Below, in pieces: positions 32,196 through 43,804 of a stretch of 64,000 bases of DNA. Within the stretch, counting starts at the first letter, position 1. The number at the start of each line of letters is the position of its first letter. The notes under the pieces were generated by a model. That model saw only the letters and a list, made by a program, of their open reading frames with translations, ran no database searches and had not been told where the DNA came from. This DNA is from Mycetocola miduiensis. GTDB lineage: Bacteria > Actinomycetota > Actinomycetes > Actinomycetales > Microbacteriaceae. A program made the translations under genes and the position numbers. The stretch lies in NCBI RefSeq assembly GCF_900115155.1, contig NZ_FOVM01000001.1:496001-560000 (forward strand). The letters run 5' to 3'.

Positions 32196-33275
32196 ATGCA
32201 CACTCCTCCCTCTTTGCGACGTCGCGCCACCTCACTCCGCCGCGGCGCCACCTCACTCCGCCGCGGCGCCACCATGCTGGCCGTCGTGGCGACGAGCGCC
32301 GTGCTGCTGTCAGGCTGCGCCACCACGGCATCGAGCGAGACGGACGCCACCGCAACCGACAGCGGAGCGTTCCCTGTGACGATCGAAAGCGCCCTCGGCG
32401 ACGCCGTGATTCCCAGTGAACCGAAGAGCGTCGTGACGATCGGCTGGGGTTCGGCAGACACTGCGATCGCCCTCGGCACCACACCGGTCGGCGTCGAGGC
32501 CGCAACGTGGGGCGGCGACGAGGACCAGTACTTCCCGTGGGTCCGCGATGCCATCGAGAAGAAGGGCGACGACCTCCCGACGACGTTCAACGTGTACCCG
32601 GAGATCGACGTGGAAGCGGTGCTCGAGCTCGCCCCAGACCTGATCCTCGCGCCCCAGTCGGGAATCTCGGAGGACGAGTTTGCGACCCTCAGCGAGATCG
32701 CTCCCGTCGTCGCCTACCCCGACTCCGCCTGGCGGACCACCTGGGACGACCAGATCGAGATCATCGGCAAGGCGCTCGGCAAGAGCGACGAGGCAGCCGA
32801 GCTCATCACCGGTATCGACGAGGACATCGCCGCCGCAGCAGCGGAGCATCCCGAATTCGCCGGCCTGAGCTTCGCCTACGTCTACGCCGCAGAGCCGGGC
32901 GCCCTCGCGCTGTACCAGGCCGGCGACCCCCGCGTCGACCTGATCACGGGCCTCGGCATGACGATCGACGAGAGCGTCGGCGAGGTTCCGCTCACCGACG
33001 GCAGCTTCAGTTCGACGGTCGGGCTGGAACGCGCCGACCTGCTCGATGACGTCGACGTGCTCTTCACCTGGTTCAACGACGAAGAGAACCAGAAGCTCAT
33101 CGAGGCGCAGCCGCTGTTCGCGCAGATCCCCGCTGTTGAGCGTGGGTCGTACGTGCCGAGCGTCGACAACCAGTTGGGCATGGCGTCGAGCATGATCACG
33201 CCGCTCAGCGTTCCGTGGGCTCTCGACAAGTACATTCCGTTCATCGAGGATGCCGTCACCAAGGCTGCGAAGTAA
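32196..33275 (+). CDS. Iron-siderophore ABC transporter substrate-binding lipoprotein
   Basis: 359 residues. A lipoprotein signal: hydrophobic MLAVVATSAVLLSGC with the lipobox cysteine at residue 41, preceded by an unusually long Arg-rich n-region made of three R-R-x-A-T repeats. The mature part is a class III (FhuD/FepB type) binding protein: FPVTIESALGDAVIPSEPK, VEAVLELAPDLILAP and the C-terminal SVPWALDKYIPFIEDAV. Anchored outside the membrane, it hands a ferric siderophore to the FecCD permeases downstream. AAGGGA lies 7 nt before the ATG. Confidence 0.94.
   Translation: MHTPPSLRRRATSLRRGATSLRRGATMLAVVATSAVLLSGCATTASSETDATATDSGAFPVTIESALGDAVIPSEPKSVVTIGWGSADTAIALGTTPVGVEAATWGGDEDQYFPWVRDAIEKKGDDLPTTFNVYPEIDVEAVLELAPDLILAPQSGISEDEFATLSEIAPVVAYPDSAWRTTWDDQIEIIGKALGKSDEAAELITGIDEDIAAAAAEHPEFAGLSFAYVYAAEPGALALYQAGDPRVDLITGLGMTIDESVGEVPLTDGSFSSTVGLERADLLDDVDVLFTWFNDEENQKLIEAQPLFAQIPAVERGSYVPSVDNQLGMASSMITPLSVPWALDKYIPFIEDAVTKAAK
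32226..32273 (+). repeat. 21-bp tandem repeat in a signal peptide
   Basis: Unit GCCACCTCACTCCGCCGCGGC repeats exactly at 32226-32246 and 32247-32267, followed by a partial copy. It encodes ATSLRRG units in the n-region of the lipoprotein signal; copy number can change in frame. Confidence 0.85.
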
Positions 33276-40297: not shown

Positions 40298-40867
40298 ATG
40301 CGCGCCCTCCAGTTCCGCGAGCCGATCGACACCGAGCGGCTGGCCCTGCGCCTTCAGACGGATGCCGACATCGACGCGGTCTACTCGTGGCAGTCGCGGG
40401 CGGATGTCTGCCGGTACCTCCTCTACGAGCCTCGCGATCGCAAGACGGTCGCCGCGAGGCTGGCCGAGGATTCTCGGCGCACGCGGCTCGAGGCGAACGG
40501 CGATTACCTGCAACTCGCGGTGGAACGCCGGGCGGACGGCCGGGTGATCGGTCAGATGTATTTCACCGTCGACAACGCCGAGTACTCGACACTCGAGATC
40601 GGCTGGGTCTTCCATCCTGACGTGGCCGGGCAGGGTTACGCGGCCGAAGCGGCCCGGGCGCTCCTCGCCCTCGGCTTCGAAACGATGGGGGCGCACCGCA
40701 TCCTGGCGTCGCTCACGCCCGAGAACACGGCATCCGTCCGGCTCTGCCTGCGCCTCGGCATGCGTGAAGAGGCGCACTTCGTCGAGGACATGTTCATCAA
40801 GGGTCGCTGGGAAGACACCGGCGTCTACGCCATCCTCGACCGGGAATGGTCAGCGAACCGCGGCTGA
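40298..40867 (+). CDS. GNAT-family N-acetyltransferase (RimJ-like)
   Basis: A 189-residue GNAT protein: IDTERLALRLQTDADIDAVY at the start, acetyl-CoA-binding loop region VFHPDVAGQGYAAEAARALL, and the family ending SVRLCLRLGMREEAHFVED. The layout matches RimJ/RimL-like acetyltransferases that modify protein N-termini or small amines. Single gene; its 3-prime end overlaps the convergent membrane-protein gene by 18 nt. Confidence 0.92.
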   Translation: MRALQFREPIDTERLALRLQTDADIDAVYSWQSRADVCRYLLYEPRDRKTVAARLAEDSRRTRLEANGDYLQLAVERRADGRVIGQMYFTVDNAEYSTLEIGWVFHPDVAGQGYAAEAARALLALGFETMGAHRILASLTPENTASVRLCLRLGMREEAHFVEDMFIKGRWEDTGVYAILDREWSANRG

Positions 40868-41470
40868 GGCCGCCGGTGCCCGCAGGCTGGCCAGGACCAG
40901 GGCGGCGCCGACGGCCAGCGCGGCGGGGACGGTGCCGAACACCAGGGTGGGCTCGAACACGGTGGTGATGACGAGGACCGCCAGCGCTCCGCCCAGTGCG
41001 ATGCGGGCGCCGGATACCGGCAAGAACATCGACACGACCAGCAGAGCGGATGCCGCGGCCAGCAGCGCGGACGGCCCGGCCATCACGTCAGCCCAGGCGC
41101 CTGCGGGCGGCTGACCGTCGCCGGGCCGCGGCGCTCCAGCCACGAGCGAAGCGACGACCACGAACGCAGTGCCGGCTATGCCGATCCCCGCGAGCAGTCG
41201 CCGTTCCAGGAACATCAGGAGAATCAGCGCCGCAGCGAAAAGGATCAGCCCGGTGAAGAAGCCGAGGACCAGGCCAGGCACGAGGTAGCCGATGCCGTCG
41301 GCGCAGTAGTACGCGCCAGGGTCGTCATCCCCCATCGCCAGAAAGCTGCAGTAGAGATGCATGCGGTCCCGCAGAAAGGCGATCGCCGCCATGGACAGCG
41401 GGATGACGAGGACCATGCCGGTAAGGACTGTCACGCCCATCGCCAGCCAGGCCCGCGCACCGTTGCTCAT
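40850..41470 (-). CDS. Unknown membrane protein
   Basis: 206 residues with about five hydrophobic segments (about 10-32, 64-88, 92-112, 135-156, 158-200). After the first segment a cysteine-containing outside loop, HLYCSFLAMGDDDPGAYYCADG, could hold a disulfide. No family recognised. Its ATG is the last of four ATGs, 8 bp apart, in the octanucleotide repeat at 41465-41500. The other three ATGs each open a three-codon reading frame that ends on the next ATG. Confidence 0.75.
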   Translation of the reverse strand: MSNGARAWLAMGVTVLTGMVLVIPLSMAAIAFLRDRMHLYCSFLAMGDDDPGAYYCADGIGYLVPGLVLGFFTGLILFAAALILLMFLERRLLAGIGIAGTAFVVVASLVAGAPRPGDGQPPAGAWADVMAGPSALLAAASALLVVSMFLPVSGARIALGGALAVLVITTVFEPTLVFGTVPAALAVGAALVLASLRAPAASAAVR

Positions 41471-41500
41471 GAGCTCATGAGCTCATGAGCTCATGAGCTC
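41465..41500. repeat. Octanucleotide repeat (GAGCTCAT)n at a start codon
   Basis: Four and a half copies of GAGCTCAT. The repeated ATGAGCTCAT is its own reverse complement. On the minus strand it gives ATGs at 41494, 41486, 41478 and 41470; the first three each read ATG AGC TCA TGA, with the TGA overlapping the next ATG. The fourth opens the membrane protein gene. Confidence 0.9.
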
Positions 41501-41605
41501 AATCTAGCCGGATGTTGTAGGCCGAAGCAGAAGGGATCGACGTCGAAGGCGCCCGAATGCCGGGGTCAACGCGCAGGGGGTCACACCGTTCACAGCCGGG
41601 GTTGA

Positions 41606-41611
41606 GATGAT
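41606..41611 (+). promoter_or_regulatory. Putative -10 box of the FUSC-like gene
   Basis: GATGAT, 6 nt before the ATG at 41618, no ribosome site. Weak match, included for its spacing. Confidence 0.35.
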
Positions 41612-41617
41612 GAAGCC

Positions 41618-42718
41618 ATGGGTACAGCTCCTCGCACGGCCGTGATCGGCGCCGGCACCCGACTCAAGAGCTGGCTTGCTAACCCCCGGCTCCTTCTCGC
41701 CATCAAGACCTCCATCGCCGTGGGCCTCGCCTGGGTGATCGCCCATCTGGTCCCCGGCGTCGCCGATGAGTATCCGTACTACGCACCGCTGGGGGCGCTG
41801 ATCAGCGTGTCCCCGACGCTCATGAGCTCGGTTCGACGGGGTGCCCAGACACTCGCGGCACTCGCCATCGGCATCCTGCTGGCCGGTGCGATCATCATCT
41901 TCTGGGAACCGAACGTGTTCACGATCTCGGTGGCCGTCGGGGCCGGCGTGCTCATCGCCGGAAGCCGCTGGCTCACCGCGGGTGGCGAATATGTGGCGGT
42001 GGCCGCGCTCTTCGTACTCATCATCGGCGGGCAGAACGCTGACGCTTACTCGATCGGCTACCTCGTGCAGATGAGCGTCGGCATCGCCGTAGGCCTCATC
42101 GTGAACGTGACCATCCTCCCCCCGTTGAACTTCAGCGGCGCGGCGATCCAGCTCATCGAGTTCCGGTCGCAGCTGTCGTCACACCTGCACGACATCGGCA
42201 AGGCGCTCGTCGAGAGCTGGCCGCCCGAACACGAAGACTGGGCCAGCCGCAGCGGAACCCTCGTCGACACCGCAGACCGAGTGCGCGAGGCGGTCGCGGA
42301 GGCCGACGAAAGCCGCAAGCTCAACCCACGGGCGAAGCTGCATCGCCGGAACCTCGAGAAGGACTACGAGGACCTTTCTTCCCTCGAAACGATCACGTTC
42401 CACGTGCGGGACCTCACCCAGGTCCTCGCCGCGGCGATCTGGGAGAGCCCGTTCCCCGCCGAGCTTCCGCAGAAGCTCCGGGAGCCACTGAGCGACACGA
42501 TTCACGCGGTCGCCGATGCGCTGACCCTGCGCAACGCCGATGAAGACGTCGGCGAAGCGGTCGAGGTGGCCGAGGAGGCGCTCCGGATCCTGCTCGAGCG
42601 CCTGGACCAGCAACGCGACGTCGACCCGTCCGCACTCAGCCCGGCGGCGACCGCCGCGATGGACCTCCGCCGCATCCTCGCCACGCTGCAGGAGGCAACC
42701 GCTACCGCCCACGCGTGA
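41618..42718 (+). CDS. FUSC/aromatic-acid-exporter-like membrane protein
   Basis: A 366-residue protein: an N-terminal membrane half with about six short hydrophobic segments (residues 20-165; ISVSPTLMSSVRRGAQTLAA and GLIVNVTILPPLNFSGAAIQ) and a soluble, charged, helical C-terminal half. This is the layout of the FUSC/DUF939/ArAE group, which includes aromatic acid exporters. Its stop abuts the stop of the convergent LacI gene, together making TGATCA, so no terminator separates them. Confidence 0.83.
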   Translation: MGTAPRTAVIGAGTRLKSWLANPRLLLAIKTSIAVGLAWVIAHLVPGVADEYPYYAPLGALISVSPTLMSSVRRGAQTLAALAIGILLAGAIIIFWEPNVFTISVAVGAGVLIAGSRWLTAGGEYVAVAALFVLIIGGQNADAYSIGYLVQMSVGIAVGLIVNVTILPPLNFSGAAIQLIEFRSQLSSHLHDIGKALVESWPPEHEDWASRSGTLVDTADRVREAVAEADESRKLNPRAKLHRRNLEKDYEDLSSLETITFHVRDLTQVLAAAIWESPFPAELPQKLREPLSDTIHAVADALTLRNADEDVGEAVEVAEEALRILLERLDQQRDVDPSALSPAATAAMDLRRILATLQEATATAHA

Positions 42719-43804
42719 TCAGGCGGGTGCGGGCCCCGTCGTGCTTCCCCGCCGAAAGCGCACGTCGAAGCTGACGGGGTCTGGTGTACGCCCGGCGAGC
42801 AACTCGACGATGGCCCGACCTGCCGCTGCCCCTTTGTCCTGCGATGGCTGCCACACCGTGGTCAGCGAGCGCTCGAGACCGTCGACGCGGATGCCATCGA
42901 ACCCGACGACGCTCAGGTCCTCCGGCACGCGGATGCCGAGTTCCTCGGCCGCAGCGAGCACTCCAGCAGCGAGAAGGTCGCTCTGGGCGAGGATCGCGGT
43001 CGGACGATCCGCCGCCGGCACGTCCAGCAGCGCCAGTGCCGCCTCACGGCCCGCATCGCTCCTGCTCGCCCCAGCGATCCAGCCGCCGACCCCCGGATAG
43101 ACATCCCGAGCGCCGGCGATTCGCTCAAGGGCTGTGGTCACTGTGCCACCCGCTTCGCGCTCGGCCGTGAGGGGACCGACCCTGCGATCCCGGCCGAGGG
43201 CGAGCGTGACGAGCGCGACCCGCGTGTGACCTAACTCCCTGACGTGCTCGGCAAGCAGCCTGGCACCCCCGCGGTTGTCGACGCTGATCGTGTGCACGTC
43301 CGCGTCCGGCGGTCCCTCGATCTGGACAATCGGGATGTTGCGGCGCCGCATCCCCTCGAGCGTGCCGAGCGCGTCGGCATTGCACCCCACCAGGACGACC
43401 GCGTCGACCGGCGCATCGGTGACGTTGACGTATCCGCTGCCCGGATCGTGGTCAGGCAGCAGCAGGAGCCCGGCTCCGATCGCGCTGATCTCCTCGGCCA
43501 GCCCGTCGAGGGTCTGGATGAGCACCGGGTCGCGGAACGAGACCCCGATCCGGGCGGGAATCAAAGCGCCGATGATGCCACTGCGCCCGCGGCGGAGCGA
43601 CTGGGCGAGCGGATCGGGCCCGCCGTAGCCCAGCTCGGCGGCGGCCGCGAGAACTCTCGCGCGGGTGTCGTCAGACACCGGCCCGTGGCCGCTGAAGGCG
43701 AGTGAGGCCGTCGAAGCAGACACCCCGGCACGCGCCGCGACAGCGGCCAACGTCGGGCGGCCTTCAGCGCGGTTTCCCGCGGATGCCCCCTTATCGCGCT
43801 TCAT
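42719..43804 (-). CDS. LacI-family transcriptional regulator
   Basis: A 361-residue regulator. HTH and hinge: PTLAAVAARAGVSASTASLAFS, then ARVLAAAAELGYGGPDPLAQSL; the periplasmic-binding-fold sensor domain follows (GIIGALIPARIGVSFRDPVL, SVVGFDGIRVDGLERSLTTV). AGGGAG precedes the ATG. It is divergent from an MFS gene with a 14-bp perfect palindrome between them, so it probably represses that transporter. Inducer unknown, likely a sugar or nucleoside. Confidence 0.94.
   Translation of the reverse strand: MKRDKGASAGNRAEGRPTLAAVAARAGVSASTASLAFSGHGPVSDDTRARVLAAAAELGYGGPDPLAQSLRRGRSGIIGALIPARIGVSFRDPVLIQTLDGLAEEISAIGAGLLLLPDHDPGSGYVNVTDAPVDAVVLVGCNADALGTLEGMRRRNIPIVQIEGPPDADVHTISVDNRGGARLLAEHVRELGHTRVALVTLALGRDRRVGPLTAEREAGGTVTTALERIAGARDVYPGVGGWIAGASRSDAGREAALALLDVPAADRPTAILAQSDLLAAGVLAAAEELGIRVPEDLSVVGFDGIRVDGLERSLTTVWQPSQDKGAAAGRAIVELLAGRTPDPVSFDVRFRRGSTTGPAPA

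Follow-up and report, generated by a model that had tools for sequence, protein, structure and literature searches.

In mycobacteria, leaderless transcripts with small ORFs coupled to the following gene by an RTGA overlap are overrepresented (Shell et al., 2015; PMC4633059), and reinitiation at such an AUGA overlap was shown for the uPPE2-PPE2 pair of Mycobacterium tuberculosis (PMC11260477). In Escherichia coli, alteration of the 5'-terminal AUG of the 26-nt ptrB leader reduced expression to less than 8%, and a start-stop variant restored it to 40% (PMC4965119). According to a review of the field, it is unsettled whether reinitiation proceeds with 30S or with 70S ribosomes, or whether coupling acts through unfolding (PMC12548453). 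Tandem repeats have also been described at similar positions. Near leaderless promoters of M. tuberculosis they differ in copy number from isolate to isolate as well as within populations (PMC12817950), and in Beggiatoaceae TAACTGA tandem repeats are located directly before start codons, mostly of genes without canonical ribosome binding sites (PMC4679880). The locus described here, in which an octanucleotide repeat forms a chain of mini-ORFs directly before a membrane protein gene, is situated in the window, which is the whole stretch of 64,000 nucleotides that was analysed.

The repeat array and its promoter geometry

The sequence-only reading had pointed to a cascade of overlapping three-codon ORFs, and direct reading of the sequence confirmed this layout. 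The minus strand carries four ATGs spaced by 8 nt in a perfect 8-bp tandem array. Mini-ORFs 1 to 3 each read ATG-AGC-TCA-TGA (Met-Ser-Ser-stop) and are linked by ATGA stop/start overlaps, the third of which involves the ATG of the gene. Between 41506 and 41460 the minus strand reads, 5' to 3', TAGATT GAGCTC ATGAGCTC ATGAGCTC ATGAGCTC ATGAGCAACGG, with the first bases of ATG1 to ATG4 at 41494, 41486, 41478 and 41470. The features of the upstream region are as follows.

41501..41506, minus strand: -10-like box TAGATT, ending 6 nt before ATG1 (sequence; TANNNT-N6-RTG geometry)
41465..41501, minus strand: perfect 8-bp tandem array, 4.6 copies of GCTCATGA (ATGAGCTC) (sequence, TRF, shuffles, array survey)
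41483..41494, minus strand: mini-ORF 1, ATG AGC TCA TGA, its ATG at the predicted transcription start (sequence, promoter geometry)
41475..41486, minus strand: mini-ORF 2, in ATGA overlap with mini-ORF 1 (sequence)
41467..41478, minus strand: mini-ORF 3, its TGA overlapping the gene ATG (sequence)
42719-43804: LacI-type regulator ORF (assigned by eye)

TRF described the array with a period of 8 and 100% matches, and base 41501 is common to the array and the -10-like box. Since 8 leaves a remainder of 2 when divided by 3 and the unit opens with ATGA, every added unit puts a TGA in frame with the previous ATG and automatically becomes a closed three-codon ORF. Three units amount to 24 nt, and therefore ATG1 and ATG4 share one frame, with a single TGA between them. 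The array 16-mer, with up to 2 mismatches, had 7 matches in the window, as compared with a mean of 0.07 (largest 2) in 100 shuffles. When the window and 400 kb of the same contig (464 kb together) were surveyed for perfect arrays of 4-12-bp units, no other array combined a unit of at least 7 bp with at least 3 copies. Elsewhere in the window, a perfect 21-bp direct repeat of 2.4 copies (32224-32273) would encode repeated HLTPPRR in one frame.

The array 22-mer is unique to this locus in the genome, and the 10-mer ATGAGCTCAT occurs in the array and at two other single sites. The palindromic nature of the unit was noticed from the beginning and holds for both GAGCTC and ATGAGCTCAT. These palindromes abut the -10-like box and a LacI-type regulator ORF is present, so the units could be imagined as a tandem operator that binds a transcription regulator. 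This explanation is very improbable, as the 10-mer is so rare in the genome, the repeat was not seen in homologues, and a period of 8 bp does not correspond to helical phasing.

The geometry of the promoter, missed in the sequence-only reading, is the new point of this follow-up. TAGATT is separated from ATG1 by exactly 6 nt and from ATG4 by 30 nt. Among 250 crude gene calls in the 464 kb, 34 had an in-frame ATG or GTG with a TANNNT box exactly 6 nt upstream and 10 had the box 7 nt upstream, with 0 to 7 cases at each of the other spacings between 0 and 29. TANNNT-N6-(A/G)TG thus looks like a leaderless signature of the host genome. TAnnnT has been described as a leaderless signal in high-GC Actinobacteria, where about 20% of genes are leaderless (Zheng et al.; PMC3160421), and from the GC content of 65.7% over 400 kb we infer that the host genome belongs with this group. 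When all RTG codons were considered, 85 of 27131 had TANNNT at N6, as against 19-46 for each other spacing from 0 to 15; this background is large, as about 34 of the 85 would be expected from the other spacings, which leaves roughly six in ten above it before gene context is taken into account. A weight matrix built from the 34 promoters, used without cross-validation and with ATG1 outside the training set, gave ATG1 a score of 10.3 and ATG2-4 scores of -4.9, -11.5 and -4.4. In all, 26 of 27128 RTGs reached at least the value of ATG1; by the printed scores, these include 23 training sites and ATG1 itself. A scan of 40800-41700 for the sigma-70 consensus returned no promoter-like site. Since TAGATT-N6-ATG1 equals the putative leaderless geometry of the genome, the message probably starts at AUG1. 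Coupling of the RTGA type between a leaderless short ORF and a gene is rare in the 464 kb (one of five out-of-frame cases).

Gene start, predicted hairpin and proposed route of initiation

Within the array, downstream of it and at its 5' side, the following features are relevant.

40850..41470, minus strand: 206-aa membrane protein gene, start ATG4, with no match of the protein in Pfam or NCBIfam (ORF, AlphaFold2, orthologue N-terminus)
41465..41490, minus strand: predicted RNA hairpin near the 5' end, 11-bp stem and 4-nt loop (RNA folding)
41618..42718, plus strand: divergent neighbour, FUSC/ArAE-type membrane protein, given for context (PF06081, PF13515)

The AlphaFold2 model of the 206-aa protein has six helices (mean pLDDT 81), and the gene has an intact reading frame. 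Its syntenic orthologue L006, located between similar GNAT and FUSC-like ORFs (read by eye), is 50% identical. A true start further downstream, named in the sequence-only reading as an outcome that would speak against the cascade, was examined and is unlikely, because the first residue of L006 aligns with ATG4 and the similarity begins within the first residues (RA-WLA vs RV-WLA). ATG4 is therefore the likely gene start. In L006 this aligned start belongs to a TACAGT-N5-ATG arrangement without a repeat. As the repeat-free orthologue has its box 5 nt before a start aligned to ATG4, insertion of the three extra units probably shifted a leaderless start downstream by 24 nt.

The suggestion that the palindromic repeat could form a hairpin agrees with the folding predictions. 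The first 35 nt of the RNA gave -19.3 kcal/mol (z -4.24), and a 15-bp hairpin was predicted for the DNA strand. In the predicted RNA hairpin AUG1 is unpaired, AUG2 and AUG4 lie within the stem and AUG3 in the loop. The predicted probability that the gene AUG is unpaired was 0.96 without extra units, 0.89 with one and 0.01 with 2 to 5, and the first AUG was predicted to be open throughout the series of 0-5 extra units (0.90-0.96). None of the tetramers GGAG, GAGG, AGGA and AAGG occurs in the 20 nt before ATG4, where the best Shine-Dalgarno-like hexamer is the weak ATGAGC, situated 8 nt upstream and matching AGGAGG at 4 of 6 positions. Rfam returned 0 matches at the gathering score for window positions 41300-41800. 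With AUG4 predicted to be paired and AUG1 free, direct initiation by 30S subunits at AUG4 should be poor, and the predicted burial of AUG4 together with the lack of a clear Shine-Dalgarno tetramer makes entry at AUG1 a plausible route to AUG4.

The proposal that ribosomes step by termination-reinitiation down to the gene start is thus partly supported, with the promoter geometry, the absence of a clear Shine-Dalgarno tetramer upstream of ATG4 and the published AUGA/RTGA coupling in mycobacteria on its side; stepwise termination-reinitiation is the most likely reading. From the observed sequence, the promoter geometry and the repeat-free orthologue we infer a history, a transcription start, a reinitiation route and an effect on expression which together form one scheme: a leaderless start expanded by replication slippage, followed by serial reinitiation from AUG1 to AUG4. 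Its probability is put at about one half (0.52). Before the expansion the start would have read TAGATT-GAGCTC-ATGAGC, with a message beginning at the A of the ATG; in this stretch TGAGC would occur twice, 8 nt apart, and might have acted as the seed of slippage. The three added 8-bp units would have moved the gene ATG from +1 to +25, while AUG1 would have stayed at the 5' end. Most likely a 70S ribosome would bind AUG1, as on any leaderless message, make Met-Ser-Ser, stop on the overlapping codon and reinitiate, and three such rounds would bring it to AUG4. Direct 30S initiation at AUG4 would be poor, and expression would depend on entry at AUG1. Several points speak against this scheme. They include the negative sigma-70 scan, the large background of the TANNNT-N6 signature, the weak hexamer before ATG4, the rarity of RTGA-coupled leaderless short ORFs in the 464 kb and the finding, given below, that a leaderless box with one ATGA link is no commoner in the family than its control. 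Moreover, the stable 5' hairpin may hinder leaderless initiation as well, and three successive reinitiations could result in very low expression.

An improbable alternative to serial reinitiation is that AUG1 serves as a landing pad without translation of the mini-ORFs, so that binding there melts the hairpin and the ribosome slides or is handed over to AUG4, a route that has been proposed for ptrB of E. coli. The dependence of ptrB on its 5'-AUG, in a leader of 26 nt (PMC4965119), resembles the spacing of 24 nt found here. However, the downstream start of ptrB has a Shine-Dalgarno sequence, for which there is only the 4-of-6 match before ATG4, and the perfect stop/start overlaps would be superfluous. 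An extension of the preferred scheme of serial reinitiation, in which the copy number acts as a rheostat, is improbable. Through slippage the gene would here alternate between leaderless initiation, with 0 extra units, and a mini-ORF ladder of 1, 2, 3 or more steps. On the folding predictions, the step would come when a second extra unit is added to the first, as the gene AUG would then become buried and entry at the 5'-AUG with serial reinitiation would be needed. If the rheostat existed, it would represent phase variation in which the gene always keeps its reading frame.

Homologues and recurrence of similar arrays

The gene was detected in two of the six genomes of the genus (own included), four of the five other genus genomes having no detected homologue, and in 13 of 398 genomes of the family (own included); no relative was found in the wider genome-contig collection. 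The comparison across related genomes, proposed as a check in the sequence-only reading, comprised 11 homologues, i.e. the 13 loci minus the own locus, which served as the query, and minus one partial homologue with an internal stop (L017). The repeat was absent from the stretch read in all 11, and it therefore appears to be lineage-specific. In two homologues, L006 and L015 (TAGGGT-N6-GTG), a TANNNT box is followed at 5 or 6 nt by an in-frame start. In two others, L007 and L008, the codon that follows the box at this distance is a GTG or ATG outside the gene frame and opens a short ORF. In L008 this short ORF, GTG-ACA-TGA, overlaps the gene ATG. L007 has an ORF of ten codons that overlaps ATGAGC...; the stop of the latter in turn overlaps a TTG, a possible gene start but an uncertain one in view of in-frame GTGs further upstream. 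The start features of L009 to L014 were read by eye: ATGCCATGA at the start and no box in L009, a start overlapping the stop of an upstream ORF in L010 and L013, a box 9-11 nt before the start in L012 and L014, and a Shine-Dalgarno-like GGAG in L011. No clear pattern was seen in L016. The window gene and L006-L016 form an unnamed, sparse family of membrane proteins (alignment A1), in which a pair of Cys residues is conserved almost throughout and a DGI motif after the first helix throughout.

Four-link chains of the type ATGANNNN were found in 8 of 398 family genomes (own included; one of them, G021, imperfect), as compared with 7 of 398 for the reversed control (row count). Nine arrays were read, G369 contributing two; a long ORF begins at the last ATG of three of them, namely the window gene, uvrC of G073 and the imperfect case in G021. 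The array of G073 (L032) is built from another octamer, ATGAGCAG, and contains four ATGs, the last of which is the uvrC start (identified with Pfam); a uvrA-like ORF (by reading) ends four bases upstream. No octamer array was found in 75 nt at 30 other uvrC starts (31 genomes searched, 30 matched, G073 not among them). At the uvrC start of G025 (L108) a 17-nt partial duplication of the start (ATGAGCGAC...) was observed, in which the TGA of the upstream copy lies on the real ATG.

The window octamer with three ATGs occurs in six contigs of the wider genome-contig collection, four of them without a gene start at that place. In one of the six, a Proteobacteria MAG (L019), it precedes the plausible start of a likely NAD-binding protein, and in L020 the array opens 78 codons. 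The arrays of G073 and L019 also bear on the possibility that the single TGA is suppressed and that a protein with an 8-residue extension is made in the ATG1 frame, which reads MSS*AHELMSNGARAW. For uPPE2 of M. tuberculosis, suppression of the stop codon in an AUGA overlap has been reported (PMC11260477), and the uvrC array of G073 likewise has exactly three extra units. Nevertheless, such read-through is hardly probable, as the in-frame register arises by chance in one of three copy numbers and the L019 array has two extra units.

A leaderless box followed by a single 8-nt ATGA link was present in 10 of 398 family genomes, the same number as for the reversed control. The second ATG opens at least 100 codons in two of the ten loci read (own included; 11 were fetched, L102 not being scored). 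The idea of a frame filter was considered as well, by which chains of 8 and 11 nt (remainder 2) but not of 7 nt would be found at gene starts, and was rejected, as 7-nt chains are equally frequent there. ATGA chains stood at gene starts in 15 of 32 scored loci for 8 nt (14 of 29 without three added loci), in 4 of 9 for 7 nt and in 5 of 18 for 11 nt, against a base rate of 91 among the 835 ATGAs of these loci. The 8-nt set consisted of 30 loci among the matches listed plus L031, L032 and L039, with L048 not scored, and the 11-nt set of 19 loci, with L155 not scored. As 7-nt chains fare equally well, the frame-filter idea is unsupported, and the counts reflect a general enrichment of ATGA chains at gene starts. 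When perfect repeats were counted, gene starts were involved in 3 of 10 cases for 8 nt (one, L070, doubtful), 3 of 3 for 7 nt and 0 of 1 for 11 nt. The perfect 7-nt ATGANNN arrays of L136, L139 and L143 end on ATGs of ORFs of at least 100 codons, that of L139 (G084) counting six ATGAs; they are unexpected under frame-closing selection.

Two further chains were observed. An identical 20-nt stop/start chain, ATGACATGATGATTGCATGA, occurs at ~1500 in L045, L046 and L047 (G143, G312 and G239, three genomes of one genus) and precedes a polyphosphate-kinase-like ORF (by eye), the flanks of L047 differing from those of L045 and L046. In L151, L152, L153 and L164 (G174, G120, G050 and G087) four-codon mini-ORFs of the form M-x-x-L-stop are chained at a spacing of 11 nt with a CTATGA overlap, and in L151, L152 and L164 the chain is followed by an ORF of similar N-terminus (YqaJ-like by eye).

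The recurrence indicates that this topology can form more than once; as there was no excess over the controls and the frame filter failed, it does not demonstrate selection. This is the context of the strongest rival to serial reinitiation, according to which the array is a neutral or mildly harmful product of slippage, a young microsatellite before a weakly expressed gene, without regulation and with chance initiation within the array. This is possible but clearly less likely than the preferred reading. The absence of the repeat from the 11 homologues, the near equality of the reversed-motif octamer arrays (7/398 vs 8/398) and the position of 7 of the 10 scored perfect ATGA octamer arrays away from gene starts (under a common scoring rule) are in its favour. 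On the other hand, the gene frame is intact and its N-terminus is similar in L006, every upstream ATG terminates on the next start so that access to the gene is preserved, and the four-ATG topology arose independently before uvrC in G073.

Comparison with described systems

As in the mycobacterial small ORFs of Shell et al. (2015), the array has a short ORF at the 5' end, predicted here, whose TGA overlaps the next RTG, and the TGA/RTG overlap typical of leaderless coupled small ORFs is present three times in succession, the last time with the gene start. It differs in having three identical three-codon ORFs in series, derived from an 8-bp tandem repeat. PPE2, as described in PMC11260477, is reached without a Shine-Dalgarno motif, via an out-of-frame upstream ORF and an AUGA overlap, as is proposed for the array gene, whereas uPPE2-PPE2 has a riboswitch and a Shine-Dalgarno-led upstream ORF and the array has leaderless geometry and a repeat. 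The likeness to ptrB consists in a 5'-AUG about 25 nt before the gene start. Unlike the array, ptrB has a downstream start led by a Shine-Dalgarno sequence, of which there is at best a 4-of-6 match before ATG4, and no repeat is reported in the part of that publication used here (PMC4965119).

Among repeats, the phase-variation repeats of Haemophilus influenzae (PMC2651432) and the promoter repeats of M. tuberculosis (PMC12817950) are, like the array, short tandem repeats at a promoter or start, and as in phase-variable simple sequence repeats, the perfect repeat sits between the -10-like box and the gene. Copy-number variation was shown in both species, whereas the array is known here from one genome. 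Moreover, in contrast to those repeats, a change of one unit alters the number of start codons and not the frame of the gene. The TAACTGA repeats of Beggiatoaceae also adjoin start codons; however, they are ATG-less heptamers occurring in 169 sets in one genome (PMC4679880), while the array is a single locus with chained start codons, and one repeat standing before many genes was not observed here, where the 22-mer is confined to one locus and the 10-mer adds two single sites.

No description of a mini-ORF ladder built from repeats at a leaderless start was found among the open-licence PubMed Central papers searched. A duplication of 8 bp beginning with ATGA keeps the gene readable, because each extra unit closes on the next start. 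With its identical mini-ORFs in series from a predicted leaderless 5' end, the locus offers a clean natural test of reinitiation, in which the efficiency per step could be read from a series of 0 to 5 units with the gene unchanged. Any regulatory or phase-variable role would be hypothetical; the repeat-built ladder looks like a variant of the known RTGA coupling.
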